From contig CM039466.1 in NCBI GenBank assembly GCA_022414725.1, positions 17,880,817 to 17,944,816 on the forward strand: a stretch of 64,000 nt of DNA. The letters run 5' to 3'. Below, piece by piece: positions 43,368 to 62,030 of this stretch. Under the pieces are notes generated by a model. The model saw only the letters and a list, made by a program, of their open reading frames with translations, ran no database searches and had not been told where the DNA came from. The stretch comes from Microglena sp. YARC. Lineage: Eukaryota > Chlorophyta > Chlorophyceae > Chlamydomonadales > Chlamydomonadaceae. Position numbers and translations under genes: made by a program. Each line of letters begins with the position of its first letter. Within the stretch, counting starts at the first letter, position 1.

Positions 43368-43641
43368 CACCACACACACAATCGAGCACACACACACAAT
43401 CGAACACACACACACATACATACATACACAGGCTGAGTTTGGCGACATCTGTCATTAGTATTGCATCAACACAACCGAATGCACACACAATAAAACACAC
43501 ACACACACACACACACAATCAAGCACACACACACACACAATCAAACACACACACTGGCTGAGTTTGGCAACATCCAACATGAGTATTGCATCAACACAAT
43601 GGAATACACACACAATCAAACTCACGCAGTCACACAATCAA

Positions 43642-43708
<67 letters not shown>

Positions 43709-43849
43709 TGAACACACACACACACACCATAACGCACACACACACACACGCACACACACACAATCGAGCACACACACACATCGAACACACACACAATCGA
43801 ACACACACACACTGACACACACACACACTCAAACACACACACACAATCG

Positions 43850-43890
<41 letters not shown>

Positions 43891-44132
43891 GAACACACTG
43901 ACACACACACACACACACACACACACAATCGAGCACACACACACAATAGACCACACACACAGGCTGAATTTGGCAACATCCAACATGAGAATTGCATCAA
44001 CACAATGGAAAACACACACTATCAAACTCACACACACACACACACACAATCGAACACACACACACACAAAATCAAACACACACACACACAATCAAACACG
44101 CGCACACACAAATGAACACACACACACAGAAT

Positions 44133-44167
<35 letters not shown>

Positions 44168-44268
44168 AAACACGCACACACACAAATGAACACACACACA
44201 CACAATCAAACACACACACACACACAATCAAACACGCGCACACACAAATGAACACACACACACAGAAT

Positions 44269-44315
<47 letters not shown>

Positions 44316-44442
44316 AAACACGCACACACACAAATGAACACACACACACACACAATCAAACACACACACAATCACACACACACACACAAATGAACGCACA
44401 CACACAGAATCAAACACACACACAATCACACACACACACACG
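42761..44442. repeat. (CA)n microsatellite with AATCGAACACAC or AATCAAACACAC seeds
   Basis: Simple (CA)n runs are interrupted by CAATCGAACACAC, CAATCAAACACAC and, near 43,040-43,130, an alternating CATCGAACACACACGTATAC unit. Half B of the 62-bp satellite looks like an expansion of such seeds. Three copies of the start of the downstream exon lie inside it. Confidence 0.88.
43432..43500 (+). repeat. Copy of the 5' edge of the exon at 44,446, with acceptor
   Basis: Begins ACACAG-GCTGAGTTTGGCGACATC, the same acceptor and first bases as the exon at 44,446, then diverges into ATTGCATCAACACAA and (CA)n. Further copies start near 43,556 (acceptor AG lost) and 43,963 (acceptor kept). The three copies share the ATTGCATCAACACAA continuation, which the real exon lacks, so they derive from one another. 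Confidence 0.75.
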
Positions 44443-44445
44443 CAG

Positions 44446-44658
44446 GCTGAGTTTGGCGACATCTGTCATGAGTACGACATCCAGAGCAAACTGTTGGCCA
44501 TAGATGGCGCTTGTGCCCACCATGGGGAGCTGGGAAGTCAAACCAACAGCATGGAGTGTCAGCCCACATCAGCTCCGGCAGTACTGGCTGCAGAGCAACA
44601 AGCCAAGTACTTGGCGCAGCAGGCAGAGGCAGCATACCTGCAGCGCATGGTTGACCAG
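44446..44658 (+). CDS. Internal exon of an unrecognised coiled-coil-type protein
   Basis: Flanked by CAG at 44,443-44,445 and GTAGGG at 44,659. It is 213 nt (71 codons), open in phase 0 from AEFGDICHEYDIQSKLLAI to AAYLQRMVDQ. The second half is Ala/Gln/Glu rich (LAAEQQAKYLAQQAEAAYL), as expected of a coiled coil. The next exon, 46,223-46,327, joins in the same phase and continues the heptad-like pattern. I recognise no family; a cytoskeletal, flagellar or scaffold protein is possible but unproven. The exon's 5' edge is copied upstream and its 3' part many times downstream. Upstream exons are not seen and would lie across the AC satellite. Confidence 0.6.
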
Positions 44659-44721
44659 GTAGGGGGCGCGGAGGAGGAATGGTGTGTGTGGGGGGGGGGG
44701 GGGGGGGGGGGGGGGGTACAG

Positions 44722-44836
44722 CAATAGCATGGAATGTCGACCCATATCAGCTCCAGCAGTACTGGCTGCAGAGCAACAAGCTACGTACTTGGCCCAACAG
44801 GCAGAGGCAGCATACCTGCAGCGCATGGTTGACCAG
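44722..44836 (+). repeat. Exon copy 2 (3' part of exon 44,446-44,658) with splice sites
   Basis: TACAG precedes it and GTAGGA follows. It encodes NSMECRPISAPAVLAAEQQ and ends AAYLQRMVDQ, a near-copy of the last 38 codons of the upstream exon, starting at a new acceptor behind a poly-G run. Open in frame. It could be an alternative exon or a non-functional duplicate. Confidence 0.65.
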
Positions 44837-44937
44837 GTAGGAGGGATGGGGCGGGGGGGTGGGATGGGGGGCTTCCCTGCAGTGCAACAAGCTGACTACA
44901 AGATTTAGAGGGTATGGGAGTAGGTAGATGAGTCGGT

Positions 44938-44966
44938 AGCATACCTGCAGCGCATGGTTTACCAGG
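44938..44966 (+). repeat. Short exon-edge copy with donor
   Basis: Only the last nine codons (AYLQRMVYQ) plus the GTAGGA donor are repeated here, within G-rich sequence. Confidence 0.6.
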
Positions 44967-45169
44967 TAGGAGGGATGGGGGTGGGGTGGGGGGGAGTGAG
45001 GTGTGTGTGGTGGTGGTGTGTGGTGTTAGTGGGTGGTGGGGGTGGGGGTGGGTGGGTGGGGGTGGGGATGAGGTAGGGTGGGGTGGGGTGTGTGTGTGGG
45101 GGGGGGGGGGGGTGAGGTGGGTGGGGTGGTGGTGTGTGTGTGTGAGGGGGGGGGAGGGGGGGGGGAAGT

Positions 45170-45289
45170 CGAACCAACTGCATGGAGTGTCAGCCCACAT
45201 CAGCTCCGGCAGTATTGGATGCAGAGCAACAAGCTAAGTACTTGGCGCAGCAGGCAGAGGCAGCATACCTGCAGCGCATGGTAGACCAG
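45170..45289 (+). repeat. Exon copy 3 with donor
   Basis: Encodes NCMECQPTSAPAVLDAEQQ to AAYLQRMVDQ and is followed by GTAGGC. It is nearly identical to the exon at 44,446-44,658 over its 3' part and is preceded by a long GT/G-rich tract. Confidence 0.65.
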
Positions 45290-45356
45290 GTAGGCGGGGC
45301 GGAGGGGAAATGAGGTGTTTGTGGGGGTGGGTGGGGGGCAGGGGGTAGGTAGGTAC

Positions 45357-45473
45357 AGCAGCAGCATGGAATGTCAAGCCACATCAGCACCGGCAGCACT
45401 GGCTGCAGAGCAACAAGCTACGTACTTGGCCCAACAGGCAGAGGCAGTATACCTGCAGCGCATGGTAGACCAG
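45357..45473 (+). repeat. Exon copy 4 with acceptor and donor
   Basis: TACAG precedes SSMECQATSAPAALAAEQQ and the copy ends VYLQRMVDQ before GTAGGT. It is the first unit of the 102-bp tandem array that follows. Confidence 0.65.
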
Positions 45474-45990
45474 GTAGGTGGGGAGGAAGGGAGTTGGGTA
45501 AGTAGGGATGTTGGTAGGTCGGTAGGTGTGTGTGAGGGGGCAGAGGCAGCATACCTGCAGCGCATGGTAGACCAGGTAGGTGGGGAGGTAGGGAGTTGGG
45601 TAAGTAGGGATGTTGGTAGGTCGGTAGGTGTGTGTGAGGGGGCAGAGGCAGCATACCTGCAGCGCATGGTAGACCAGGTAGGTGGGGAGGTAGGGAGTTG
45701 GATAAGTAGGGATGTTGGTAGGTCGGTAGGTGTGTGTGAGGGGGCAGAGGCAGCATACCTGCAGCGCATGGTAGACCAGGTAGGTGGGGAGGTAGGGAGT
45801 TGGGTAAGTAGGGATGTTGGTAGGTCGGTAGGTGTGTGTGAGGGGGCAGAGGCAGCATACCTGCAGCGCATGGTAGACCAGGTAGGTGGGGAGGTAGGGA
45901 GTTGGGTAAGTAGGGATGTTGGTAGGTCGGTAGGTGTGAGTGAGGGGGCAGAGGCAGCATACCTGCAGCGCATGGTAGACCAGGTAGGTG
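45441..45990 (+). repeat. 102-bp tandem array of exon edge plus donor plus intron
   Basis: GAGGCAG-C/T-ATACCTGCAG starts at 45,441, 45,543, 45,645, 45,747, 45,849 and 45,951, an exact 102-bp period. Each unit holds the last exon codons (AEAAYLQRMVDQ), the GTAGGT donor and about 65 bp of intron. Since 102 is a multiple of three, one frame (45,315-46,097) reads through all copies. Intron-derived codons (VGGEVGSWVSRDVGRSVGV) make translation of the read-through frame doubtful. Confidence 0.85.
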
Positions 45991-46029
45991 CGATGAGGGG
46001 TGGGGAAGGAGATGGGGGTGGGGGGGAGT

Positions 46030-46105
46030 CTTGGATGCAGAGCAACAAGCTAAATACGTGGCGCAGCAGGCAGGGGCAGCATACCTGCAGCGCATAGTAG
46101 ACCAG
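46030..46105 (+). repeat. Exon copy after the 102-bp array
   Basis: Encodes DAEQQAKYVAQQAGAAYLQ to RIVDQ and is followed by GTAGGT. It diverges slightly more than the other copies and is the last exon-edge copy before the next exon at 46,223. A poly-G run follows it. Confidence 0.6.
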
Positions 46106-46222
46106 GTAGGTGGGATGGAGGGGGGGGGGGGGGGGGGGGGGTCGGAGGGGCAAGGAAATGGAAGGGGGGGGGGGTCTTCGCTGCAAAGAAACAAGCCGAC
46201 ACACATACATTACGGCATACAG

Positions 46223-46327
46223 GTTGCAGAGGAGAAGGAGCGACTGTCAAGACTGTTGAGGGAGAGGCTTGATCAAGTGGCTCATGCGCAGCTGGGCTAC
46301 AAGGAAGTGGCACAGGGCATTGATGAG
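46223..46327 (+). CDS. Next internal exon of the coiled-coil-type gene
   Basis: CAG at 46,220-46,222 and GTGAGG at 46,328 bound 105 nt (35 codons), encoding VAEEKERLSRLLRERLDQ then VAHAQLGYKEVAQGIDE. It is charged and Leu/Glu/Arg rich, as in a coiled coil, and is in phase 0 with the preceding exon. Its 3' edge has been expanded downstream into a 21-bp minisatellite, and longer partial copies occur at about 46,690-46,793 and 47,690-47,750. Protein family not recognised. Confidence 0.6.
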
Positions 46328-46575
46328 GTGAGGGTGTTGATGAGGTGGCACAGGGCATTGATGAGGTGGCACAGGGCATTGATGAGGTGGCACAGGGCAT
46401 TGATGAGGTGGCACAGGGCATTGATGAGGTGGCACAGGGCATTGATGAGGTGGCACAAGGCATTGATGAGGTGGCACAGGGAATTGATGAGGTGGCACAG
46501 GGCATTGATGAGGTGGCACAGGGAATTGATGAGGTGGCACAGGGAATTGATGAGGTGGCACAGGGAATTGATGAG
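46328..46575 (+). repeat. 21-bp minisatellite derived from the 3' edge of the exon 46,223-46,327
   Basis: About 12 units of GAGGTGGCACAGGGCATTGA with 21-bp spacing. The unit equals the exon's last codons (EVAQGID), so the frame stays open as a seven-residue repeat. The first interruption is the donor-like GTGAGGGTGTTGATGAGGTG at the exon end. C-to-A variants (GGCATT to GGAATT) occur in later units. Confidence 0.85.
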
Positions 46576-47650
46576 GTGAGGGTGTTGATGATGGGTTGAG
46601 GTGATTGATGATGAGGTGGGGGTGGGGTGTTGATGATGAGGTGAGGGTGTTGATGATGAGGTGATTGATGAACTGGAACAACCGTGGTGCAGTGTGGATA
46701 AGTGGCTCATGCGCAGCTGGGCTGTTAAAGCTGTTGAGGGAGAGGCGTGAGCAAGTGGGCTACAAGGAGGTGGCACAGAGCATTGATGAGGTGCGGGTGT
46801 TGATGATGAGGTGATTGATGATGGATTGAGGGTGTTGATGATGAGGTGGGGGTGGGGTGTTGATGATGAGGTGATTTATGATGGATTGAGGGTGTTGATG
46901 ATGAGGTGAGGGTGTTGATGATGGATTGAGGGTGTTGATGATGAGGTGAGGGTGTTGATGATGAGGTGATTTATGATGGATTGAGGGTGTTGATGATGAG
47001 GTGAGGGTGTTGATGATGAGGCGGGGTGGGGTGTTGATGATGAGGTGAGGGTGTTGATGATGAGGTGAGGGTGTTGATGATGAGGTGATTTATGATGGAT
47101 TGAGGGTGTTGATGATGAGGTGAGGGTGTTGATGATGAGGTGATTTATGATGGATTGAGGGTGTTGATGATGAGGTGAGGGTGTTGATGATGAGGTGAGG
47201 GTGTTGATGATGAGGTGGGGTGGGGTGTTGATGATGAGGTGAGGGTGTTGATGATGAGGTGAGGGTGTTGATGATGAGGTGATTTATGATGGATTGAGGG
47301 TGTTGATGATGAGGTGAGGGTGTTGATGATGAGGTGATTTATGATGAGGTGAGGGTGTTGATGATGAGGTGAGGGTGTTGATGATGAGGTGAGGGTGTTG
47401 ATGATGAGGTGGGGTTGGGTGTTGATGATGAGTTGAGGGTGTTGATGATGAGGTGAGGGTGTTGATGATGAGGTGAGGGTGTTGATGATGAGGTGAGGGT
47501 GTTGATGATGAGGTGAGGGTGTTGATGATGAGGTGAGGGTGTTGATGATGAGGTGAGGGTGTTGATGATGAGGTGAGGGTGTTGATGATGAGGTGAGGGT
47601 GTTGATGATGAGGTGAGGGTGTTGATGATGAGGTGAGGGTGTTGATGATT
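46576..47650 (+). repeat. 20-bp minisatellite (GAGGGTGTTGATGATGAGGT)
   Basis: About 50 units with 20-bp period, perfect at about 47,440-47,640, where each 60 bases holds three units. A longer pattern with GATTTATGATGGATTGAGGG recurs to the left. It contains the donor-like GTGAGG and GATGAGGTG motif of the exon end and may have grown from it. A partial exon copy (46,690-46,793, CTCATGCGCAGCTGGGCT) interrupts it. Confidence 0.88.
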
Positions 47651-47689
47651 GTATGGTGTATTATGAACTGGAACAACTGTGGTGCAGTG

Positions 47690-47752
47690 TGGATAAGTGG
47701 CTCATGCTCTACTGGGCTACAAGGAGGTGGCACAGGGCACTGATGAGGTACG
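47690..47752 (+). repeat. Partial copy of exon 46,223-46,327 with donor
   Basis: Encodes VAHALLGYKEVAQGTDE followed by GTACGC. It shares AACTGGAACAACTGTGGTGC upstream with the copy near 46,673. Confidence 0.6.
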
Positions 47753-47819
47753 CAGCCCTTTCCCTACCGCCATAAGACAGGGCTCCCTTAATACTACGCC
47801 CCACCAGGCATTATCATTA

Positions 47820-48150
47820 CTTTGGAGGGTCTGTCACGTGATTGACATAGATTTTACAGGGATTGGATTTCACGTCGCAAAGCATATTTTGCAGGGTCTG
47901 TAACGTGATTGGCATAGATTTGACAGGGGTTGGATGTCACGTCGCAAACACATATATTGCAGGGTCTGTAACGTCATTGACATAGATTTGACAGGCATTG
48001 GATTTCACGTTGTAAACACATATATTGCAGGGTCTGTAACGTCATTGACATAGATTTGACAGGGATTGGATTTCACGTCGCAAACACATATATTGCAGGG
48101 TCTGTAACGTCATTCACATAGATTTGACAGGGATTGGATTTCACGTCGTA
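47820..48150 (+). repeat. 68-bp tandem repeat, five units
   Basis: GGGTCTGT-C/A-ACGT starts near 47,826, 47,893, 47,962, 48,030 and 48,098, each followed by CATAGATTTGACAGGGATTG and TTTCACGTCG. No function is evident. Confidence 0.85.
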
Positions 48151-48245
48151 AACGCCCGGGGTTTGCCAGCCCGGGGTTATCCGGTTAACCCCAAAACTCT
48201 AAACCACGGGCTGGCTAACCCCGGGCTAGCTTACCCCTGCCCCGG
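48151..48245. repeat. GC-rich nested inverted repeats
   Basis: AGCCCGGGGTTA near 48,168 pairs with TAACCCCGGGCT near 48,214, and GCCAGCCCG near 48,165 pairs with CGGGCTGGC near 48,206. These give alternative stems around a GTTAACC centre. Confidence 0.65.
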
Positions 48246-49510
48246 GACAACCAGGGGGTACAACTCACCACATAGATTTTTTTTTGAAAGCAAAAAAGGT
48301 TTTGAAAGCAGGGCATATTTTGAATTGCCCTTCACCAGCCCTGGGTGAAATGCAGGAGTATAGAAATATGAATTATATGTGTGGTGGTTGGCCCCAGTGC
48401 ATGTAACCCACCCACCCACCCCTATTGGTGGTTGGCCCCAGTGCATGCAACCCACCCACCCACCCACCCCTATTGGTGGTTGGCCCCAGTGCAAGCAACC
48501 AGGCATCCCCCTCAACCTCACGCCTCGTAAGGCACACTATATTATTATTATCATTATTTATATTATTATTATCATTATTTATATTATTATTATTACTAGT
48601 ACGGTAGCCCGTGTGGCCGGTGGCCACACCTACTCTCACGAAGACCCCCCCCCCCCCCCCAGTTTTCTCCACCCCTACCCCCACCCGACCATGTACCCCC
48701 GCCCACAAACATACTCCCTTACTCTTCCTGACATATTTCCTGACTCCATCCCTTCCCCCACCCCAGCCATCCCACCAGCCCCCACTCTCATCCCTCCCCT
48801 CCCTCCTACAAGCACCCACCAGCACACACATACTCCATATCTGCCTCCCTCCACTTCAGCTGTGCGCTTTGCCATAGCTGAAAGGCAAACGGGACGATGA
48901 GCATCGACAACGTTTGCGCATCATCCGACTCCGCTAAAAGCATCAGACCTGCTTCCCTGCCACCTCAGCTGTGATCGATAGTCGACCCCACTGAAAAAGC
49001 TGAACCTGCGCAATTGCAACTGTATACAACTAAAGCTTCTTCTTAGCGATCATGTATTCAGTTCGGCCGAAGAACAATCCTGTTCACCGCAACTGCTCCC
49101 GAAGTCAAGTCGATCTGAGACTTGGAAATATCGCTAGGTTCATCCATTCAACTTTGCCGCGTGCTCGCTATAGCACAATGCACAGCGACGACATGTTTCT
49201 CGATGCAGTGGGAAGTTGCTGATTTGAGATGTTCGGTCAAGTTAGGGCGAGAATGCTCAGCGAGATTTTTCGTTCCGTCAACTTTGATGCGTACTTGCTA
49301 TGGCACAATGCAGAGCGACATATTTCTCAATGCAGTGGGAAGAATTTGCAGTCAAGTTTGTGGCATGGGATGGATGCGATTCGGACATTTCTGACAGGTC
49401 GGCTGACTCACCACGTGACTTCCCGTTGTGTGCAGCGACAGGTCTCTTGACGCAAGGGAAAGCTCTTGCAGAGATGCAGGGGGAAAAGCTTGTAGGAAGA
49501 CGAACTGTAG
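48246..49510. other. Unassigned sequence with small repeats
   Basis: Three units of GGTGGTTGGCCCCAGTGCA at 48,382, 48,427 and 48,475 are followed by CTCAACCTCACGCCTCGTAA, a piece of the repeat seen at 58,321-59,860, and then by (ATT)n at 48,538-48,598. At 49,140-49,345 a segment containing GCACAATGCA and TGCAGTGGGAAG occurs twice. No gene is recognised. Confidence 0.5.
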
Positions 49511-49575
49511 CGCTACCGAAATCAGGTGGATGAACTCAGGCGGGAAAAGGAGAAATCGGGCTGGATGCGCAACAG
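49511..49575 (+). CDS. Candidate exon of the coiled-coil-type gene
   Basis: Preceded by ACTGTAG and followed by GTATAA. The 65-nt segment reads RYRNQVDELRREKEKSGWM and RN in the open frame, with a charged coiled-coil character similar to the exons at 44,446 and 46,223. A following segment at about 49,620 (TTCGCAG then GAGGCCAATC) could be the next exon. The call rests only on splice-like borders and composition. Confidence 0.3.
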
Positions 49576-49717
49576 GTATAATACGTAGGAGGCGAAGGTT
49601 GCATAAGGCAGAATTCGCAGGAGGCCAATCAGGCAGAAGTTGAAGCAGGAGGGATTAAAAGCGTGAATTGGCTGAGCGGGAATTGGCTGGGCGGGAAGTC
49701 GGTTAAGTCGGTTACAC

Positions 49718-49885
49718 GATGACACCACCACGACCACCACCACCACCACGACCACCACCATGATTTCTTTATATATATAGATTATTATTATTATTATTAA
49801 TGAATTATATATTGTTACTATTATTTATGAATTATACTAGATTATACCCGAATTCTACATTATTATCATTGTTTATGATTTATAT
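49718..49885. repeat. (CCACCA)n and (TTA)n microsatellites
   Basis: ACCACCACG repeats at about 49,722-49,760, then a TA/TTA-rich stretch with repeated TATATTG and ATTTATGA motifs. Confidence 0.75.
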
Positions 49886-50544
49886 ATTGCATGGTTGCGC
49901 AGGTCTACGTTGCAAGCAGGAGCTGGTACGAAGTGAAGTGACGGGGTTTGCATTCCCACCAGGGCTGTTCAGGACGCTGCGTCGCAAGGGTCCGTTGCGT
50001 CGTAGGCGCAGCTTCAGTGGGTTGGTGGCGTCGCAGGGCGCAGGCTATGGGTCGGTTGTGGGCCGGTTACGTCTCAGAACGCAGAGCTCGGGGTCCTCCT
50101 GAACAACCCTGGTTCCCACTGGAATTGTACATTACGTAGTCATAAACATGTCATTGTTGACCCAACACAAGCCTAAATTACGCCCCTCTGTGTTTGGGTG
50201 CATGGGTTGTGTCTGTCTGCATCTTTTGTTTTGTTTTATCTGGTCTGTTTTGATTTGGTTTGGATGACATTTCATTGACATTCACTGTGTACAGCATGGG
50301 TTGGCTGTCTGCATCTTTCGTTTTCATTTGGTTGGGTGAGAGGGATGTCTGACATTCCATGGTGCTACGTAACATTACGGCGTCATCAGCAGGCCATTGT
50401 TGACCCAAGACAAGCCCGCTCCAAAACATCTGGGAGGAGCCTTCCGACTACCCGGATATTCTCAAAGTTAGATATGCAATATTTCAGCAATCGAGCAAAA
50501 TTGCAGCAAGGGATACAAAGTCATAATAACGCCTGGAGAGGGGC
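49886..50544. other. Unassigned sequence with a dispersed GTTGCGTCG segment
   Basis: CAGGGCTGTTCAGGACGCTGC, GTTGCGTCGTAGGCGCAG at about 49,965-50,015 resembles 52,038-52,150. ACGTA, ATTGTTGACCCAA and ACAAGCC occur twice (50,135-50,175 and 50,365-50,420). No gene is recognised. Confidence 0.4.
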
Positions 50545-50760
50545 GGGGGGGGGGGGGGGGGGGGGGGGGCTATTGGGCTACCCCTGGACTGTAACATACA
50601 CACAGCAACAGAAGAGGAGGGATTACTGTAGTCATAATTCCGGCAGTACGCCTGTGGCAACATTTAATTTACTATTTCCACCGTGCAACTTGAACTTGAG
50701 CTTGGTTGTATAGCTCCAGCCAGCAAATTAGCTGCTCGCCGTCTTCGGCAGTATCTTTTA
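50545..50760. repeat. Poly-G-headed dispersed repeat, copy 1
   Basis: A run of about 35 G is followed by CTACCCCTGGACTGTAAC and, further on, CTTGAGCTTGGTTGTATAGC, TCCAGCCAGCAAATTAGCTG and CGTCTTCGGCA. The same order follows the G-run at 51,570. Confidence 0.65.
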
Positions 50761-51569
50761 CCATGAAATCAAATCCCAAATCCCTTAGAAATCCCTGGTC
50801 GGGTCCACGTATAGGATATGTGAAGTGGCTGATGAAGAGACTTGCCCAAGCGCTTCACGTCCCTCGTGGTGTCAAGTAGACTTTTACATGTAATGTAATG
50901 TAATATGAAGACTGGCAAGTGGCAGTGATTTGATTGACTTTATTTTGATACGTAACGTAAATTTAATGAATGGAAAATAAACCTGTAACGATTTGTATAA
51001 GGCTGGAAGCTGTAGACTTGATCGTCATCATCACCATGACACCATCATCATCATCATGCCTGGTCATACAACAGCGCTAGACAGCTTGGGTAGGTTCCAT
51101 ACGACACTTCACTCCGGCTGAGAAAAGAGAAGAAATCTGCTTGTGTCAACTAGGTTTGGCCGGTAGAAAATATCGAAGTACAAAATGTTTACGGCTGAAG
51201 GCTGGAACTCTGGAAGCGACCAACTTCCCATACGCGTCTGAAATGTTTGGCAGTAAATAGGTTTGGCTGGGGAAAAAACAAGCCTGAAATCATTTGCGCC
51301 ACTTAAGTTGACATGGGGCGCTCCATAATTTTGCTTAAGTTACATATTAGGCGGAATCCTTAAAACAAAATCCATTAAAAACAGATTTCTCAAAAGGAGA
51401 CGCTGAGGAGCCCAGAGTTGGCTGCGAAACTTGATACAATCCAATGCAGAGTGTGGTGTGGCGTGGTAGCGTTTATAGCACCCAGGTTTATTCTGCCCGC
51501 CGACACAGAGCCTGAAGGATAAGGAGAGGAACCATGAGGCGGCGAAGAATGGAGGGGTTGGGCGCCCTA
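50761..51569. other. Unassigned sequence
   Basis: A/T-richer sequence with a short TGTAATGTAATG repeat near 50,890 and ATCATCATC near 51,040. I see no supported gene. Confidence 0.4.
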
Positions 51570-52240: not shown

Positions 52241-52494
52241 TCAAAGCTTGCCGATGATGGCCTTGGTGAAGTCGCTGGTGGTGGAAGTACCTCCCAGGTC
52301 TCCGGTGCGGTACTTGCCCTCGGCGATGGTGTCGAGGGTGGCCTTCTGGATTCGGTTGGCCTCCTCGTTCATACCCAGGTGTCGGAGCATCATGCACGAG
52401 CTCATGATCAAGGCAGTGGGGTTGGCCAAGTTCTTGCCGGCGATGTCGGGGGCAGTTCCGTGAACAGCCTCGGCGAGCATCATGTTGTTCAGTC
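52241..52494 (-). CDS. IDH: NAD-dependent isocitrate dehydrogenase, last exon
   Basis: On the minus strand CCTAG at 52,499-52,495 is the acceptor and TGA at 52,243-52,241 the stop. The exon encodes GLNNMMLAEAVHGTAPDIAG, NLANPTALIMSSCMMLRHLG and TLDTIAEGKYRTGDLGGTST to KAIIGKL. The AEAVHGTAPDIAG motif and the C-terminal GDLGGTSTTSDFT identify NAD-type mitochondrial IDH rather than isopropylmalate dehydrogenase. In the family the enzyme oxidises isocitrate to 2-oxoglutarate in the mitochondrial citric acid cycle. Phase fits the exon at 57,321-57,508 (split Gly). About 19 copies of its first 65 or so bases lie immediately upstream. Confidence 0.9.
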
Positions 52495-54840
52495 CTAGGG
52501 GTGGGGGATGGGGGGTGAGGGGTGAGAGAGGGGTTGTCAGAGGGGGGTGGGGTTGGCGCAGTTCTTTGCAGGCGATGTCCGGGGTGGTTCCGGGGACAGC
52601 CTCGGTGAGCATCATGTTGTTCAGGCCTAGGGGCGGGGGGTGGGGTGGGGTTGGGGTTGTTAGAGGGGGGGTGGGGGGTGGGGGTGGCCAGGTTCTTGCA
52701 GGCGATGTTGGAGGCGGTTCCGTGAACAGCCTCGGTGATGTATCATGTTGTTCAGTCCTAGGGGCGGGGGTGGAGGGTGGGGATGGGATGGCTAGGTTGT
52801 GAGAGGGGGGCGGGAGGCGGGGTTGGCCAGGTTCTTGCCGGCGATGTCGGGGGCAGTTCCGTGAACAGCCTCGGCGAGCATCATGTTGTTCAGTCCTAGG
52901 GGTGGGGGATGGGGGGTGAGGGGTGAGAGAGGGGTTGTAAGAGGGGGGTGGGGTTGGCGCAGTTCTTGCAGGCGATGTCTGGGGTGGTTCCGGGGACAGC
53001 CTCGGTGAGCATCATGTTGTTCAGGCCTAGGGGCGGGGGGTGGGGTGGGGTTGGGGTTGTTAGAGGGGGGGTGGGGGTGGGGGTGGCCAGGTTCTTGCAG
53101 GCGATGTTGGAGGCGGTTCCGTGAACAGCCTCGGTGATGTATCATGTTGTTCAGTCCTAGGGGTGGGGATGGGGGGTGAGGGGTGAGAGAGGGGTTGTCA
53201 GAGGGGGGTGGGGTTGGCGCAGTTCTTGCAGGCGATGTCCGGGGTGGTTCCGGGGACAGCCTCGGTGAGCATCATGTTGTTCAGGCCTAGGGGCGGGGGG
53301 TGGGTGGGGTTGGGGTTGTTAGAGGGGGGGTGGGGGGTGGGGGTGGCCAGGTTCTTGCAGGCGATGTTGGAGGCGGTTCCGTGAACAGCCTCGGTGATGT
53401 ATCATGTTGTTCAGTCCTAGGGGCGGGGGTGGAGGGTGGGGATGGGGATGGCTAGGTTGTGAGAGGGGGGCGGGAGGCGGGGTTGGCCAGGTTCTTGCCG
53501 GGGGATCATGTTGTTCAGTCCTAGGGTGGGGGATGGGGGGTGAGGGGGTGAGAGAGGGGTTGTAAGAGGGGGGTGGGGTTGGCGCAGTTCTTGCAGGCGA
53601 TGTCCGGGGTGGTTCCGGGGACAGCCTCGGTGAGCATCATGTTGTTCAGGCCTAGGGGCGGGGGGTGGGGTGGGGTTGGGGTTGTTAGAGGGGGGGTGGG
53701 GGGGGTGGGGGTGGCCAGGTTCTTGCAGGCGATGTTGGAGGCGGTTCCGTGAACAGCCTCGGCGAGCATCATGTTGTTCAGTCCTAGGGGTGGGGGATGG
53801 GGGGTGAGGGGGTGAGAGAGGGGTTGTAAGAGGGGGTGGGGTTGGCGCAGTTCTTGCAGGCGATGTCCGGGGTGGTTCCGGGGACAGCCTCGGTGAGCAT
53901 CATGTTGTTCAGGCCTAGGGGCGGGGGTGGGGTGGGGTTGGGGTTGTTAGAGGGGGGTGGGGGGTGGGGGTGGCCAGGTTCTTGCAGGCGATGTTGGAGG
54001 CGGTTCCGTGAACAGCCTCGGTGATGTATCATGTTGTTCAGTCCTAGGGGTGGGGGATGGGGGGTGAGGGGGTGAGAGAGGGGTTGTCAGAGGGGGGTGG
54101 GGTTGGCGCAGTTCTTGCAGGCGATGTCCGGGGTGGTTCCGGGGACAGCCTCGGTGAGCATCATGTTGTTCAGGCCTAGGGGCGGGGGGTGGGGTGGGGT
54201 TGGGGTTGTTAGAGGGGGGGTGGGGGGTGGGGGTGGCCAGGTTCTTGCAGGCGATGTTGGAGGCGGTTCCGTGAACAGCCTCGGTGATGTATCATGTTGT
54301 TCAGTCCTAGGGGCGGGGGTGGGGGTGGGGATGGGATGGCTAGGTTGTGAGAGGGGGGCGGGAGGCGGGGTTGGCCAGGTTCTTGCCGGCGATGTCGGGG
54401 GCAGTTCCGTGAACAGCCTCGGCGAGCATCATGTTGTTCAGTCCTAGGGGTGGGGGATGGGGGGTGAGGGGGTGAGAGAGGGGTTGTAAGAGGGGGGTGG
54501 GGTTGGCGCAGTTCTTGCAGGCGATGTCCGGGGTGGTTCCGGGGACAGCCTCGGTGAGCATCATGTTGTTCAGGCCTAGGGGCGGGGGGTGGGGTGGGGT
54601 TGTTAGAGGGGGGGTGGGGGTGGGGGTGGCCAGGTTCTTGCAGGCGATGTTGGAGGCGGTTCCGTGAACAGCCTCGGTGATGTATCATGTTGTTCAGTCC
54701 TAGGGGCGGGGGTGGGGGGTGGGGATGGCTAGGTTGTGAGAGGGGGCGGGAGGCGGGGTTGGCCAGGTTCTTGCCGGCTATGTCGGGGGCAGTTCTGTGG
54801 ACAGCCTTGGCGAGCATCATGTTGTTCAGTCCTAGGGGCG
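52495..54840 (-). repeat. Higher-order tandem array of the 5' edge of the last IDH exon
   Basis: Units of about 130 bp end at CTAG-GACTGAACAACATG or CTAG-GCCTGAACAACATG. Their starts on the + strand (near TTGTTCAG) are close to 52,617, 52,751, 52,885, 53,020, 53,150, 53,280, 53,410, 53,510, 53,646, 53,776, 53,909, 54,038, 54,172, 54,301, 54,439, 54,570, 54,692 and 54,824. Three variants alternate: A (MMLAEAVHGTAPDIAGKNLA), B (MMLTEAVPGTTPDIACK) and C (one extra base, frameshifted to MIHHRGCSRN). Each keeps the acceptor and about 65 bp of exon, then G-rich intron; none has an obvious donor. The truncated A unit near 53,510 is only about 40 bp. Confidence 0.88.
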
Positions 54841-55045
54841 GGATGAGGGGTTGGGGTTGTGAGAGGGGGGTGGGTGTGGGGGTTGTGAGGGGGGGGGGGG
54901 GTAGATGGGGGTGTGTGAAGGGAGCGGGGTTGTGGGGTTGTGAGAGGGGGTGGGGTTGTGGGGTTGTGAGAGGGGTGTGTGGGTGTGAGATGGGGTTTGG
55001 GGTGGGGTTGTGAGGGGAGATTGGTGGTGGTGGTGTGTGTGTGTG

Positions 55046-55076
<31 letters not shown>

Positions 55077-55200
55077 GGGCACAAGCAGGACTTGTTCCAC
55101 TGTGCTCAAATTATGTTGTTCAGTTCTGGGGGTGGGATGGGGTGGAGGGGTACTGCCTACACTACCTTGCTACCGCATGAAAACTATACTTAATGTATTA
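54841..55200. repeat. G/T-rich low-complexity intron of IDH
   Basis: GGTTGTGAGAGGGG-type repeats and a GTGTGTG run with poly-G at about 55,060-55,079. A last remnant of the exon-edge unit (ATTATGTTGTTCAGTTCTGG) is at about 55,108-55,128. Confidence 0.75.
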
Positions 55201-55213
55201 ATGTACTTCTACT

Positions 55214-55670
55214 CACCAACGTTAGAGCTGGGGGTGATGCCCAGACCACCAATGAGCCCAGCGCACAGATCAGAGATACAAGGTTAGGCATGACCACCAC
55301 CACCACCTCGTCACCACCGCCACCGCAAACCATTTTGCTTGCATGCTCTCCCACTACTCATTCATATCATGCAATTCTGATTCCACTCCAACTCACCAAC
55401 GTTAGCGCTTGGGGTGAGGCCCAGCCCTCCAATGAGACCAGCGCACAGATCTGAGATACAAGGTTAGGCATGACCACCACCACCACCTCGTCACTACCGC
55501 CACCGCTAACCATTTTGCTTGCATGCTCTCCCACGACTCATTCATATCATGCAATTTTTTTTGAATCCACTCTAACTCACCAACGTTAGCGCTTGGGGTG
55601 AGGCCCAGCCCTCCAATGAGACCAGCGCACAGATCTGAGATAATGTCTCCGCACAGGTTAGGCATGACTA
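55214..55670 (-). repeat. Three copies of the 3' edge of the IDH exon 57,321-57,508, with donors
   Basis: Copies at about 55,214-55,292, 55,394-55,475 and 55,577-55,667. All carry the donor GGTGAGT followed by TGG or TA. The third encodes [19 protein letters not shown] then [10 protein letters not shown] intact. The first two lack about 11 bases between MPNL and the ISDL region (CTTGTATCTCTGATC), which breaks the frame. Each is followed by a CACCACCACC intron segment. Confidence 0.8.
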
Positions 55671-56600
55671 TCACCACCAACTCGGCACCACCACCAAGAC
55701 CCCCATATTGGCATCACAACCACTACTATCACCACCAACTCGGCACCACCACCAAGACCCCCATTTTGGCATCACAACCACTACTATCACCACCACCTTG
55801 GAACCACCAACTCGGCACCACCACCAAGACCCCCATTTTGGCATCACAACCACTACTATCACCACCAACTCGGCACCACCACCAAGACCCCCATATTGGC
55901 ATCACAACCACTACTATCACCACCACCTTGGAACCACCAACTCGGCACCACCACCAAGACCCCCATATTGGCATCACAACCACTACTATCACCACCACCT
56001 TGGAACCACCAACTCGGCACCACCACCAAGACCCCCATATTGGCATCACAACCACTACTATCACCACCACCTTGGAACCACCAACTCAGCACCACCACCA
56101 AGACCCCCATATTGGCATCACAACCACTACTATCACCACCAACTCGGCACCACCACCAAGACCCCCATATTGGCATCACCACTACTATCACCACCACCTT
56201 GGAACCACCAACTCGGCACCACCACCAAGACCCCCATATTGGCATCACAACCACTACTATCACCACCACCTTGGCACCACCACCAAGACCCCCAAATTGG
56301 CATCACAACCACCACTATCACCACCACCTTGGCACCACCACCAAGACCCCCAAATTGGCATCACAACCACCACTATCACCACCACCAAGACCCCCATATT
56401 GGCATCACAATCACTACTATCACCACCACCTTGGAACCACCAACTCGGCACCACCACCGTAACCCATTTTACTTGCATGCTCTCCCACTACTACCACCAT
56501 CACCTTGGAACCACCACCTCGACAACACCACCGTAACCCATTTTACTTGCATGCTCTCCCACTATTTATTAATATAATGCAATTTGTTTTGAATCCAGTC
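55671..56600. repeat. Minisatellite in IDH intron (CACCAAGACCCCCATATTGG unit)
   Basis: Alternating units of about 57 and 75 bp contain ACCACCAAGACCCCCATATT, GGCATCACAACCACTACTAT and, in the longer form, CACCTTGGAACCACCAAC. About 12 units. At 56,455-56,600 CATTTTACTTGCATGCTCTC segments recur, as also near 55,330, 55,510 and 57,250. Confidence 0.85.
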
Positions 56601-56604
56601 CAAC

Positions 56605-56692
56605 TCACCAACATTGGCGCTGGGGGTGAGGCCCAGTCCACCAATGAGACCAGCACAGATCTGAGATAATATCTCCGCACAGGTTAGGCATC
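56605..56692 (-). repeat. Copy 4 of the 3' edge of the IDH exon, with donor
   Basis: Donor GTGAGT is kept. The copy reads [13 protein letters not shown] and then loses frame because two bases are missing (AGCACAGATC for AGCGCACAGATC). Confidence 0.75.
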
Positions 56693-57125
56693 ACCACCAC
56701 CACCTCGGCACCACCACCACCACCTCGGCGCCACCACCACCACCACCTCGGCACCACCACCACCACCACCACCACCTCGGCACCACCACCACCACCACCT
56801 CGGCACCACCACCACCACCACCACCACCACCTCGGCACCACCACCACCACCACCTCGGCACCACCACCACCACCACCTCGGCACCACCACCACCACGACC
56901 TCGGCACCATCACCACCACCACCTCGGCACCACCACCACCACTACCTCGGCACCACACCACCACCTCGGCACCACCACCACCTCGGCACCACAACCACCA
57001 CCACCTCGGCACCACCACCACCACCTCGGCACCACCACCACCACCACCTCGGCACCACCACCACCACCACCTCGGCACCACCACCACCTCGGCACCACCA
57101 CCACCACCTCGGCACCACCACCACC
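56693..57125. repeat. (CAC)n-CTCGG minisatellite in IDH intron
   Basis: Units of CACCACCACCTCGGCACCA with variable numbers of ACC, about 20 copies. Another degenerate copy of the exon edge (AACGTTTGCGCTGGGG, AACGCTAGCACTGGGGG) follows at about 57,126-57,215, with most of the exon lost. Confidence 0.88.
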
Positions 57126-57320
57126 ACCAACGTTTGCGCTGGGGTTTACCAACGCTAGCACTGGGGGTCAGTCCTCCGTTTGGCGAACAGATCTGAGATA
57201 AAAGGTTAAAGCATGACCACCATCACCACCACCTCGGCGCCACTGCAACGCATTTTACTTGCACGCTCTTCCACTACTCATTCATATCATGCAATTTGTT
57301 TTGAATCCACTCCAACTCAC

Positions 57321-57508
57321 CAACATTGGCGCTGGGGGTGAGGCCCAGTCCTCCAATGAGTCCAGCGCACAGATCTGAGATAATATCTCCGTAGAGGTTA
57401 GGCATGACCAGCACATCAAACTGGGTGGGGTCTTTCACAAGCTGCATGCATGCGTTGTCGACGATCAGCTCGTTGTACTTAATGTTGGGGTAGTTCTCAC
57501 TCACTTCC
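57321..57508 (-). CDS. IDH: NAD-dependent isocitrate dehydrogenase, penultimate exon
   Basis: Bounded by TTGTAG (57,514-57,509) and GTGAGT (57,320-57,315). The 188 nt encode [40 protein letters not shown] and [20 protein letters not shown] to NV. The aspartates of DIISDL match the metal-isocitrate binding aspartates of the family, and MPNLYGDI is the usual signature. Phase joins correctly to the exons at 60,649-60,788 (CCR-EV) and 52,241-52,494 (VG-LN). It is the only copy with the full exon length; the copies at 55.2-57.2 kb hold only its 3' edge and 57,545-57,612 only its 5' edge. Confidence 0.92.
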
Positions 57509-57544
57509 CTACAAGCAAGTGAAATGGTATGCAAAGTTAGTTAA

Positions 57545-57612
57545 CTGCATGCATGCGTTGTCAACGATCAGCTTGTTGTACTTAATGTCTGGGTAGTTCT
57601 CACTCACTTCCC
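57545..57612 (-). repeat. Copy of the 5' edge of the IDH exon 57,321-57,508, with acceptor
   Basis: TTGCAG followed by GGAAGTGAGTGAGAACTACC and on to GACAACGCATGCATGCAG, encoding EVSENYPDIKYNKLIVDNAC. Only about 68 bp are copied and no donor follows. Confidence 0.8.
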
Positions 57613-57985
57613 TGCAACCAGGTAATCGCATATGCAAAGTTAGTTAAATGCGAAGTTAGTTCGATCATATACCAGTTAGCTTAATGCAAGCAGGTGTAAT
57701 CATATGCAAGTTACTTAAATCATATGCAAGTTACTTAAATCATATGCAAGTTAGCTAAATGCGAAGTTAGTTAAATCATACGCCAGTTAGTTAAATGCAA
57801 GTTAGTTAAATCAGATGCCAGGAAGTTAAATGCAAGCAGATGTAATCATATGCAAGTTAGTTGACTGCAAAGTTAGTTAAATGCAAGTTAGTAAATCATA
57901 TGCCAGTTAGTTAAATGCAAGCAGGAGTAATCATATGCAAGTTAGTTGACTGCAAAGTTAGTTAAATACCAGTTAATTAAATCAG
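57613..57985. repeat. Minisatellite (CATATGCAAGTTAGTTAAAT type) in IDH intron
   Basis: Irregular 18-25 bp units of ATGCAAGTTAGTTAAATC with variants ATGCCAGTTAGTTAAATG and ATGCAAGCAGGTGTAATC. The phrase begins in the sequence flanking the partial exon copy (GCAAAGTTAGTTAACTGCAT). Confidence 0.8.
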
Positions 57986-57989
57986 CCTT

Positions 57990-58060
57990 ATTCACGATGT
58001 TGGCCTTGTGCACATTAGTGACGCCATCAAGCATTGGATTCAAAAGATGGGCAGCCATAT
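57990..58060 (-). repeat. Copy of the 3' edge region of the IDH exon 60,649-60,788
   Basis: The minus strand reads VTNVHKANIVNKAD, like the [14 protein letters not shown] of the exon, but without the GLFIECC end and donor. It is joined to CATCAAGCATTGGATTCAAA, the flank shared by the copies at 60.1-60.5 kb. Confidence 0.65.
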
Positions 58061-58315
58061 GAAATAAACACTTTATTTAGAATATGACAAGCTACATGAA
58101 TGAATATGACATGAATGAATATGACAAGCTACATGAATGAATGAATATGACAAGCTACACGAATGAATGAATATGACAAGCTACATGAATAAATGAATGT
58201 GAAATAAACACAATAATTAGAATATGACAAGCTACATGAATGAATGAATATGACAAGCTAAATGAATGAATGAATATGAAATAAACACTATATTTAGAAT
58301 ATGACAAGCTACATG
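58061..58315. repeat. Tandem repeat of AATATGACAAGCTACATGAA
   Basis: Units of about 28-36 bp with extra AATG steps. ACAAGCTACATGA also starts the 91-bp unit that follows, so the two arrays share a seed. Confidence 0.8.
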
Positions 58316-59860
58316 AATGGCCCGAGTGAAAGCAAACGGGCTGGCCCCCTCGACCTCACGCCTCGTAACAAGGCGTACAATGTTTTTATTTATGACGAGC
58401 TACATGAGTGGCCCGAGTGAAAGCAAACGGGCTGGCCCCCTCAACCTCATGCCTCGTAACAAGGCGTACTATGAATTTATTTATGAGAAACTACATTAGT
58501 GGCCCGAGTGAAAGCGACCGGGCTAGCCCCCTCAACCTCACGCCTCGTAACAAGGCGTACCGAGGGGGGGGGCAAGAAAAAAGCTGCCGTACCGCATCTT
58601 CGCTTTGGATAGAGCTTATCCTCGAACTATAAAAAAGTTGTTTTTTAGCCAAAAATAAAGTTTAACTAAAGTTATAGGGGTCCAAAGTTGTTTTCACCCA
58701 AAGCGGTCAAAATCTTTAAATAAATGACGTCTGAGCAACCTTACGAAAGATGTAAGAGCATAACTAGAATTGGCGCGAAAAGATCTTTCGAATGACCCCC
58801 ATTTTTTTGGGGGGGGGTAGGGTAAAGTAATCGGGTTTTAGGAGAGGGGGGGGGGGGGGGGGGGGGGGGGGGGTAGGTGTAAAGAACTTTTTCAAAACTT
58901 TATTTCCCCCCCTCTTTTTGTATGAAACTTCCACAATTCCTACTACCATCTGAATCGGACACCAAATTGAACATGCGATCCAAAATCTGTCTTTCTGCCC
59001 CACCCCTGAGGCGAACTATGTATTTATTTATGACGAGCTACATGAGTGGCCCGAGTGAAAGCAAACGGGCTGGCCCCCTCAACCTAATGACTCATAACAA
59101 GGCGTACTAATTATTTATGTATTTATGACAAGCTACATGAGTGGCCCGAGTGAAAGCAAACGGGCTGGCCCCCTCAACCTAATGACTCGTAACAAGGCGT
59201 ACTAATTATTTATGTATTTATGACAAGCTACATGAGTGGCCCGAGTGAAAGCAAACGGGCTGGCCCCCTCAACCTAATGACTCATAACAAGGCGTACTAA
59301 TTATTTCTGTATTTATGACAAGCTACATGAGTGACCCGAGTGAAAGCAAACGGACTGGCCCCCTCAACCTAATGACTCGTAACAAGGCATACTATGCAGG
59401 TACTCGGTACTAAGTATTTATTTATGTATTCATGAGAAACTACATGAGTGGCCCGAGTGAAAGCAAACGGGCTGGCCCCCTCAACCTCACGCCTTGTAAC
59501 AAGGCGTACTATGTATTCATTTATGACGAGCTACATGAATGGCACCAGTGAAAGCAAACGGGCTGGCCCCCTCAACCTAATGAATCGTAACAAGGCACAA
59601 TATGCAGGTACTCGGTACTATGTATTTATTTATGTATGTATGACAAGCTACATGAGTGGCCCGAGTGAAAGCAAACGGGCTGGCCCCCTCAACCTAATGA
59701 ATCGTAACAAGGCACAATATGCAGGTACTCGGTACTACGTATTTATTTATGTATGTATGACAAGCTACATGAGTGGCCCGAGTTAAAGCAAACGGGCTGG
59801 CCCCCTCGACCTCACGCCTCGTAACATGGCGTACTATTTATTTATTTATTACAAGCTACA
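58316..59860. repeat. 91/95/117-bp tandem repeat, 11 units, split by an insertion
   Basis: CCCGAGTGAAAGCAAACGGG starts at 58,321, 58,412, 58,503, 59,050, 59,145, 59,240, 59,335, 59,452, about 59,543, 59,660 and 59,777. Each unit continues CTGGCCCCCTCAACCTCACG and CCTCGTAACAAGGCGTACTA, then TATTTATTTATGACAAGC. The 117-bp units contain an extra GCAGGTACTCGGTACTA. The 547-bp spacing after 58,503 is caused by the element at 58,561-59,009. Confidence 0.9.
58561..59009. mobile_element. Poly-G-ended insertion element inside the 91-bp repeat
   Basis: The neighbouring units give the empty site: AAGGCGTACTATGTATT. Here GGCGTAC (58,554-58,560) is followed by 449 bp and then GGCGAAC-TATG (59,010 on), so the site is interrupted with a probable 7-bp target duplication carrying one mismatch. 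The left end CGAGGGGGGGGGCAAGAAA and the reverse complement of the right end TCAGGGGTGGGGCAGAAAG are imperfect inverted repeats. A 28-G run lies inside at 58,846-58,873. No protein is encoded. Confidence 0.6.
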
Positions 59861-60642
59861 TGATGCCATCAAGCGTTGGATTGAGAAGATGGCCAGGCAC
59901 ATGAATATATCATTCAACGATAAGAGCGATTCAAGTGGCCAGGCACATGAATATATCAAGCATTCAACGATAAGAGCGATTCAAGTGGCCAGGCACATGA
60001 ATATATCAAGCATTCAACTATAAGAGGTGAACCAACCACTCACTCACACATAAACACCCCCCTCACATTCACACACCCACATAAACACACTTTCTGTCCA
60101 CCACCACCACCACTACACACAACCTTCCAGCTACACTCGATGCACAGACCGCCAGCCTTTTTTACAAGGTTGGCCTTATGCACAGAAGTGACGCCATCAA
60201 GCGTTGGATTCAGAAGATGAGCAGCTTAATCAAGCATTCAGCTATAAGAGCCCCCCCACCCCCACCCCCTCAACACACACACACACATACCTCCTACCTA
60301 CTGGCAGCACTCAATGAAGATACCGCCATCAAGCATGGGATTCAGAAAATGGGCAGCTATATGAAGTCATCAAGCATTCAGCTATTAGAGGCATACCCCC
60401 CCACCACCCACCCACCCAGCCCCACCACCCACACAAACCTCCAACCTACCGCAGCACTCGATGAAGAGACCGCCAGCTGTTTTTTATGTTAGCCTTGTGA
60501 ACAGAGGTGACGCCATCAAGCATTGGATTCAGAAGATGAGCAGCTATATGAAGTTTCCAAGCATTCAGCTATTAGAGGCATACCCCCCCCCCCCCCCCCC
60601 CCCCCCCCTCCCAGCCCCACCCCCCACCCACACAAACATCCA
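59861..60642 (-). repeat. Copies of the 3' edge of the IDH exon 60,649-60,788, with donors
   Basis: Partial copies at about 60,130-60,195 ([20 protein letters not shown]), 60,305-60,345 (only the IFIECCQ end with TAGGTAGG) and 60,437-60,512 ([13 protein letters not shown], then frameshifted, donor GTAGGTTGG). Each is joined to CATCAAGCATTGGATTCAGA and GATGAGCAGCTATATGAAG, which also recurs alone near 59,865. C-rich runs separate the copies. Confidence 0.75.
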
Positions 60643-60648
60643 ACCTAC

Positions 60649-60788
60649 CGGCAACACTCGATGAAGAGACCGTCAGACTTCTTCATGATGTTGGCCTTGT
60701 GCACGGAAGTGACAGTCTCCCGGCCGTTGTCACGAGCATATTTGAAGGCATACTCAGCAACACGAATGCTGGCCTTCCTAGTGATGAT
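60649..60788 (-). CDS. IDH: NAD-dependent isocitrate dehydrogenase, third-last exon
   Basis: Bounded by TTGAAG (acceptor side) and GTAGGT (60,648-60,643). The 140 nt encode [40 protein letters not shown] and LFIECC. VHKANIM holds the catalytic lysine of the family, and RVAEYAF is a standard neighbouring motif. The acceptor is placed by comparison with the upstream copies, which read CTGTAG or TTGTAG before ATCATCACC. The three recognised exons give about 192 of the roughly 340-370 residues of a subunit. The N-terminal half with substrate-binding arginines is not in view. Confidence 0.88.
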
Positions 60789-61560
60789 CTTCAAGTTATT
60801 CAAAGAAAAAACGTCATGAAGTGTACTAAGCAAGTGTGATATATCAATTTGAAAGGCTTGGTTACATGAAAAGACATGCTGCTAGGTTGTGGAGACGTAC
60901 TCAAAAACACGAATGCTGGCCTTCCTGGTGTTGACCTACAAGTCACGAAGTTTCCTGAGCAAGTGTGATATTTCAAATTTGAAGACTTGGATACATGAAA
61001 AGGCATGATGTCAGGTTGTGAAAGCATACTCAGCAACACGAGTGGTGGCCTTCCTGGTGATGATCTACAGGGTATTTAAACAACAAACGTGATGAAGTGT
61101 ACTGATCAAGTGTGATATTTCAATTTTAAAGACTTTGTTGCATGAAAAGTCATGATGCTAGGTGGAGGCATACTCAGCAACACGAGTGCTGGCCTTCCTG
61201 GTGATGATCTACAGGTCATGAAGTGTGCTGAGCAAGTGTGATATTTAAATTTTAAAGACTCTGTTGCATGAAAAGGCATAATGCCAGGTTGTGGAGGGAT
61301 GCTCGGCGACACGAGTGCTGGAGCTCCTGGTGATGATCTACAAGTCACGAAGTGTACTGAGCAAGTGTGATATTTCAAATTTGAAGACTTGGTTACATGA
61401 AAAGGCATGATGCCAGGTTGTGGAGGCATACTCAGCAACACGAGTGCTGGCCTTCCTAGTGATGACCAACGAGTCACGGAGTTTCCTGAGCAAGTGTGAT
61501 ATTTCAATTTTAAAGACTCTGTTGCATAAAAAGGCACGATGTCCGGTTGTGGAGGCATGC
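60789..61560 (-). repeat. Tandem copies of the 5' edge of the IDH exon 60,649-60,788
   Basis: Five further copies of IITRKASTRVAEYA with acceptors of the CTGTAG/TTGTAG type, at about 60,895-60,945, 61,025-61,070, 61,165-61,215, 61,298-61,345 and 61,428-61,478, spaced about 130-145 bp. Between them lies AAGTGTGATATTTCAA, GACTTGGTTACATGAAAAGG and CATGATGCCAGGTTGTGGAG. Each loses homology soon after GAGTATGCC and has no donor. Changes such as ARG-for-LYS or frameshifts vary by copy. Confidence 0.85.
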
Positions 61561-61910
61561 TGAGACGATAGTGGGTGAATGGTTGGGTGGAACGGTGGGT
61601 ATGGTTGTTGGTGGATGTGGTGTATGGGTGGGTATGGGTGGGCTGTGACAATAGTGTGGTGATGCTGAGACGATGTAGTCAAATGCTACCTGGTGTAGAA
61701 GGATGCTGCAGCCTTGATGGTGGGCTTGCTGCACCACCACCAGCACCACACCACCACAATTCCAGTACCAACACTGACACCATCACCAACATCTGTGTTA
61801 ACCCAACTGTAGGCCAGCCTTGCCAAACACGAAAAAGAAAAAAGAAAAATGGAAAGTGACTCGTTCGAGTGTACATTTTCCAGGTAATATTTTTTTGTAC
61901 TTCCAAAGAC
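61561..61910. other. Unassigned, with a duplicated ATGCTGAGACGAT segment
   Basis: ATGCTGAGACGAT occurs at about 61,557 and 61,662 around a GGTGGGTATGGTTG-rich stretch. No gene is recognised. Confidence 0.4.
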
Positions 61911-61911
61911 G

Positions 61912-61957
61912 GCGAGCAGCCAAATTGCTGGCTGAAGCTATGTAACCAAGTTCGAGT
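61912..61957. repeat. Inverse copy of the poly-G-headed dispersed repeat tail
   Basis: AAAGACGGCGAGCAGCCAAA, TTGCTGGCTGAAGCTATGTA and ACCAAGTTCGAGTTCAAG are the reverse complement of the segment at about 50,690-50,745. No poly-G run is attached. Confidence 0.65.
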
Positions 61958-61964
61958 TCAAGTA

Positions 61965-62030
61965 GGCCAACCTTGTCAGAGGCACACTTGATAGCAGTAA
62001 AGCAAATACTAGCATTCTTGATGATGTCAT
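61965..62030 (-). repeat. Strongly diverged copy of the IDH exon 60,649-60,788
   Basis: The minus strand reads IIKNASICFTAIKCASDKVG, which aligns with [20 protein letters not shown] and NG with one residue less. No convincing splice sites. It could be an older edge copy or chance. Confidence 0.3.

Follow-up and report, generated by a model that had tools for sequence, protein, structure and literature searches.

Why should the introns of a green alga carry the edge of the neighboring exon, complete with its splice site, over and over in tandem? The question is raised by a 64-kb window of Microglena sp. YARC (the whole 64,000-nucleotide stretch of DNA analysed here), where an earlier note had described such copies around exons of two genes on opposite strands. 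We consider it probable that they are splice-junction minisatellites of the mirage kind known from amphioxus, produced as introns grew by random local tandem duplication. The evidence comes from this one window and a single haplotype, and comprises nine junctions in two genes, one of them a probable gene only.

By its predicted protein, the gene on the minus strand is a chlorophyte NAD-dependent isocitrate dehydrogenase (IDH): its three exons form one continuous frame, and both joins are gapless in an alignment with nine green-algal relatives (75-85% identity), which were selected by hand from the listed protein matches. Among the best 120 matches listed, the nearest protein is 85% identical and none is identical, with Polytomella parva (81%) and Chlamydomonas leiostraca and Sanguina aurantia (both 79%) as the nearest named relatives there. 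No IDH exon upstream of the 60,788 exon was found within the 64-kb window. In one relative, P0001 (84% identical), N-terminal residues resembling a translated CA repeat and pyrimidine tract stand just before the VITRKAS motif, and a Haematococcus IDH model, P0165, lacks ten residues exactly at that position. The predicted start of P0001 suggests a retained intron at the same place in that relative, and the two protein models together hint that the intron before the 60,788 exon may be old, with no bearing on the remaining introns.

The plus-strand gene, to which four of the nine junctions examined belong, consists of two open, phase-0 exons that are probably real, judging by open frame and splice signals. 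It gave no Pfam match and no homologue among 13 candidates, which were proteins of similar length only, and because no homologue was detected we rate both exons as probable. Its codon-usage likelihood is the highest among the forward frames, yet is equalled by one reverse frame. The ~24 kb in front of it (~20,000-44,440) abound in CA repeats; the repeat units there measure ~62 and 126 bp, small indels are numerous, and the whole region is possibly one giant intron of this gene.

Elsewhere, the window returned no Rfam match at the gathering threshold, and a Pfam search of eight open frames gave a single match, at 2,761-3,198, to a retroelement domain (SH3-like, from a retroviral-type polymerase). 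Retroelement remains span 263-3,198; the frame at 263-628, although without a Pfam match, resembles what we take to be a Copia RNase H. Four similar open frames at 7,070-11,284, spaced 1,231-1,232 bp apart, form a 1.2-kb tandem unit, and two of them were searched against Pfam with no match. About four copies of AGGGTTT, presumably the plant-type telomere motif, lie inside the contig at 12,302-12,330, and stop-to-stop frames at 15.3-18.5 kb contained no obvious gene when inspected by eye. Exactly 1000 N at 18,531-19,530 presumably mark an assembly gap. Within the IDH intron, a repeat with GGCTGGCCCCCTCAACCT followed by a CGTAACAAGGCGTACTA-like end recurs over 58,300-59,850, and a stretch at 48,500-48,540 is related to it (both by eye).

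Table 1. Exons and exon-edge copies, in window positions
Feature	Position	Strand	Basis
Probable exon, plus-strand gene	44446..44658	+	Open frame, AG and GT borders; no homologue
Probable exon, plus-strand gene; acceptor side without copies	46223..46327	+	Open frame, splice signals
IDH exon, first of three in window	60649..60788	-	Reading frame and gapless alignment with nine relatives
IDH exon, middle	57321..57508	-	Reading frame and gapless alignment with nine relatives
IDH exon, last, with stop codon	52241..52494	-	Reading frame and gapless alignment with nine relatives
Three 5'-edge copies of the 44,446 exon, 36 exonic nt; AG kept in 2/3	43422..43998	+	Edge search
Ten 3'-edge copies with donor, 44,658 exon (31-135 exonic nt); GT kept in 10/10; includes a 102-bp array	44703..46113	+	Edge search, tandem-repeat analysis
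Arrays of 21-bp and 20-bp units, derived from the 46,327 exon's 3' edge and donor; also two longer copies (46,722; 47,695)	46342..47749	+	Edge search, tandem-repeat analysis
Five 5'-edge copies with acceptor, 60,788 exon (46-60 exonic nt); AG kept in 4/5	60890..61474	-	Edge search
Three 3'-edge copies with donor position, 60,649 exon (27-65 exonic nt); GT kept in 2/3	60120..60511	-	Edge search
Remote 60,649-edge copy (the fourth), with 41 exonic nt; stops short of donor	57982..58022	-	Edge search
Single tandem copy of 57,442-57,544, spanning the 57,508 acceptor; abutting, 88.6% identical	57545..57647	-	Alignment
3'-edge copies of the 57,321 exon with donor, at 55,205; 55,385; 55,569; 56,599; ~57,148	55205..57222	-	Edge search
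5'-edge array of the 52,494 exon with acceptor; 20 matches, 19 reaching and keeping AG; units ~131 bp, higher-order ~400 bp	52547..55136	-	Edge search, tandem-repeat analysis, alignment

A search of each adjacent intron with a query made of up to 140 nt of exon edge and 12 intron bases recovered same-strand copies that reach the splice site at eight of nine junctions, namely all five of IDH and three of the four in the plus-strand gene. In the latter, the splice dinucleotide is reached by 3/3 matches at acceptor 44,446, 10/10 at donor 44,658 and 39/40 at donor 46,327, where at least 24 exonic nt are common to only 13 of the 39 copies, the others forming a 20-bp array that shares 7; acceptor 46,223 yielded zero matches in its adjacent intron. 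The corresponding counts in IDH are 5/5 at 60,788, 3/4 at 60,649, 1/1 at 57,508, 6/6 at 57,321 (two of these matches overlap, leaving five places) and 19/20 at 52,494. When exon-only 60-nt edges of the nine junctions were used instead, 56 of 57 copies fell in the junction's own intron and none on the opposite strand, the sole exception being a copy of the 46,223 edge in the following intron of the plus-strand gene. Zero copies were found with the 60 nt at the stop-codon end of the terminal IDH exon, and six mid-exon 60-mers have 3, 2, 2, 0, 0 and 0, the 254-nt exon being clean inside; the few mid-exon copies arise because the copied edges of short exons extend towards the exon middle. Queries extended by 60 intron bases also match low-complexity CA, C or G tracts elsewhere, including on the other strand, and all counts given here were taken from the 12-intron-base and exon-only queries.

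The arrangement of these copies is that of tandem duplication. At acceptor 57,508, two 103-bp stretches abut head to tail, the duplicated unit comprising 67 exonic and 36 intronic nt. The 52,494 array is built of ~131-bp units in three subtypes, together with mosaics of them, and ~400-bp blocks that start at exon base 77-79 recur adjacent to the exon at 52,819-53,212 (95.5% identity) and again at 53,077, 53,964 and 54,367 (95.5-97.1%); as these blocks begin within the exon, its true edge was apparently involved in duplication more than once. Across nine units at eight junctions the exonic share ranges, by our own arithmetic, from ~0.29 to 0.65, a variability which argues that the breakpoints have no fixed place. 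Exon-derived bases account for 45% (0.447), 7% and 35% (0.352) of the three complete introns, and TRF arrays cover 50%, 63% and 90% of them. Together, the bare abutting pair, the in-register arrays, the restriction to one strand and the privacy of each family to one intron bear out the proposal of the earlier note that these introns grew by repeated junction-crossing tandem duplication. Its description of five exons in two genes with junction-spanning edge copies stands at the eight junctions above and needs amending at acceptor 46,223, which has none, and at acceptor 57,508, which has a single one; the array that it assigned to the 3' edge of the 46,223 exon is indeed present on the donor side, with the exon end now corrected to 46,327.

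Are the junctions themselves prone to duplication, or merely permissive of it? The strongest rival to random duplication holds that splice junctions preferentially start duplications, for example through R-loops formed during transcription, through breaks, or through template switching where intron ends are rich in repeats, and the presence of copies at eight of nine junctions speaks in its favor. To compare rates, 40-nt windows of adequate complexity were scored for a copy of 75% identity within 6 kb; the comparison was confined to the 64 kb, and since overlapping windows share arrays the counts are not independent. Copies were found for 45/52 junction-spanning windows, 44/52 exon windows within 60 nt of a junction, 11/58 exon windows further than 60 nt away and 537/640 windows in the three complete introns. 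Intron windows without any exon-derived base still scored 252/334, and other regions gave 318/578 at 1-12 kb, which contains the 1.2-kb tandem unit, and 39/359 at 48-52.2 kb. Block-shuffled targets, preserving 2-base blocks rather than full dinucleotide counts, returned zero copies in every window class, including 0/52 for junction windows, which rules out chance similarity. With a rate approximating that of introns, junctions behave like introns and exon interiors are spared. As a test of refutation set beforehand, the earlier note had asked whether junction-spanning windows are duplicated more often than internal exon or intron windows; run within the window, the answer is split, in that junctions exceed deep exon and do not exceed introns.

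How many junctions undirected growth would reach was estimated by simulating random tandem duplication up to the three observed intron lengths, with log-normal units (median 110 bp), 1000 runs per case, exon-internal events lethal, junction-spanning events neutral and a side counted as copied if at least 20 exonic nt were duplicated; unit lengths, starting length and tolerance were our own choices. With a start of 270 bp, the mean intron length of Chlamydomonas reinhardtii (PMC5966456), the model copied 5.06 of six junctions when all growth was by duplication, 3.4 when half was and 1.9 when a quarter was. The corresponding values are 5.46, 3.8 and 2.2 from a 150-bp start and 4.56, 2.8 and 1.6 from a 460-bp start; the median introns of volvocine algae are given as 198-343 bp in the text compared (PMC8226300). 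The three complete introns have copies at 5/6 junctions. Their exon-derived shares lie inside the simulated 5-95% ranges for all growth by duplication from 150 or 270 bp, except that the 7% intron falls below the 13-70% range at 150 bp, and with half or a quarter of the growth from 270 bp the shares 0.447 and 0.352 exceed the simulated 95% points of 0.23 and 0.16. Undirected duplication can explain the consistency of the pattern if nearly all growth was of this kind and began from short introns, as in this model, or might do so if the arrays, once formed, expanded by themselves or if junction arrays grew preferentially. The view that such consistency calls for a special process is not supported where junctions are duplicated about as often as introns and random duplication with protected exons can predict about five of six junctions. 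The 45% and 35% shares do exceed the simulated means of 22-26% (270 bp, all growth), as targeting would have it; the nearly equal copying of intron windows, the persistence of duplication in intron windows free of exon-derived bases and the variable exonic part of the unit all argue the other way. We thus regard junction targeting as unlikely, and duplication was presumably not aimed at junctions.

What has become of the copies since then? Coding lesions were counted in the 31 IDH copies that align over 35 columns or more; 29 of these are frameshifted, contain a stop or have a missense change at a position that does not vary among the ten aligned sequences. The copies therefore look like fossils and not exons, and their use as alternative exons is rejected on this count. 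The splice dinucleotide, on the other hand, is retained in 44/47 copies outside the 46,327 arrays and in 38/39 inside them, and AAG at the real 60,788 acceptor contrasts with TAG in four of its five upstream copies (60,890-61,474), such that by sequence these decoys may fit the usual acceptor better than the real site. Both observations would suit spare donors and acceptors being kept as functional regulators of splicing. However, fully conserved columns make up 62-66% of three of the four copy families and 47% of the fourth, and with such conservation and a common ancestry of the copies retention of the dinucleotide needs no selection. Furthermore, the copies come without a second exon border, and in amphioxus RT-PCR is reported, in the text compared, to show regular splicing despite such copies (PMC3087553). 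We consider functional decoys very unlikely.

Misassembly could in principle have made or multiplied the copies, a concern fed by the gap elsewhere in the window and by some copies that are ~98.9% identical to the real edge. Nearly all copies, however, differ from that edge by several per cent, and diverged subtypes and mosaics are not made by misassembly, which leaves an artefact highly improbable, even if near-identical units may have been miscounted. Introners are known to multiply intron sequence (PMC9860276, in the text compared), but scattered insertion of a mobile element of that type at junctions is hardly credible, as each family carries its own gene's exon edge and no copy is inverted, and it is contradicted within the window by the 56/57 copies in their own intron.

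The earlier note knew of no named process behind the pattern; in amphioxus, however, repeats of this kind go by the name of mirages, and there, in the text compared, tandem units span the intron-exon boundary at 5' or 3' exon borders of Adh3, the globins BflGb6 and BflGb9, troponin C and PGBD5 (PMC3087553, PMC3902484). Many of those copies are described there as having AG or GT, with units of tens to ~160 bp, concerted evolution in the array, regular splicing and length polymorphism (PMC3087553, PMC3902484). The algal repeats share the boundary-spanning unit, found at eight of nine junctions and in its barest form as the abutting duplicate at 57,508, and they occur at both kinds of border, with acceptors 44,446, 60,788, 57,508 and 52,494 and donors 44,658, 46,327, 60,649 and 57,321. 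Most of them, though not all, likewise keep the dinucleotide, and concerted evolution is indicated by the subtypes, mosaics and 400-bp higher-order units of the 52,494 array only. They differ in belonging to another kingdom-level lineage, in affecting nearly every examined junction where single ones are affected in amphioxus, and in their extent, with up to 20 matches at a junction, higher-order repeats and two introns that are 45% and 35% exon-derived; the algal case is known from the genomic sequence of one haplotype alone.

Other known systems share some of these traits. Gao and Lynch reportedly described internal gene duplication in which tandem duplication touches exon and intron borders. 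In the RdRp gene of potato, tandem duplication touching such borders is described, in the text compared, as giving rise to a new intron or exon (PMC4974935), whereas in the alga introns already in place seem to become longer and leave the joined protein as it was. Introners resemble the algal repeats in multiplying intron sequence, in algae and other eukaryotes alike (PMC9860276, in the text compared), but there one mobile family spreads over many genes, whereas each algal family is private to one junction: the same family across introns or genes is the mark of an introner, and within the 64 kb 56 copies sit in their own intron and one in the next intron of the same gene. Tandem repeats of C. 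reinhardtii and Volvox carteri reach their highest density in introns, with more of them close to intron-exon junctions, and the text compared does not state that their units include exon sequence or splice sites (PMC3887541). The literature searched (titles and the starts of abstracts) showed no earlier description of repeats like these from a green alga, which does not prove that none exists. What is new, as read from the genomic sequence, is a dense chlorophyte example in which the units take in both exon edge and splice site at almost all the junctions studied. Also added to earlier work are all five junctions of a gene for a conserved enzyme, a control drawn from the same window and a model of growth.

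In light of these results, we propose that intron growth by random local tandem duplication would proceed as follows. A stretch of tens to a few hundred bases would be duplicated head to tail. Inside an exon such an event would break the protein and be lost; within an intron or across a junction it would be tolerated, in the latter case because splicing can keep to whichever donor or acceptor copy lies next to the exon, and the redundant edge would turn into intron. Further rounds, along with unequal exchange among the copies, would then lengthen the arrays and generate higher-order repeats. This scheme implies that splicing uses the exon-proximal sites and that the introns once measured some 150-300 bp.

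It is a tentative possibility, on which we would not yet insist, that junction-spanning duplication is a main, genome-wide engine of intron lengthening in this chlorophyte lineage, with splicing tolerating many intact spare sites per junction. Such tolerance raises the question of how splicing selects one site among many intact copies. Intron lengthening is ordinarily hard to reconstruct because intron sequence has no reference; a copied exon edge supplies one that is under protein constraint, so that growth steps become recognisable and can be ordered. If the proposal is true, these introns would preserve, in copies tied to conserved exon sequence, a fossil record by which every growth step could be placed in order, and volvocine algae would have a way of arriving at introns as conspicuously long and rich in repeats as theirs. 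For these, the advantage of keeping introns above a minimum length is described as unknown in the text compared (PMC8226300), and junction-spanning duplication would provide a testable neutral route to their length.
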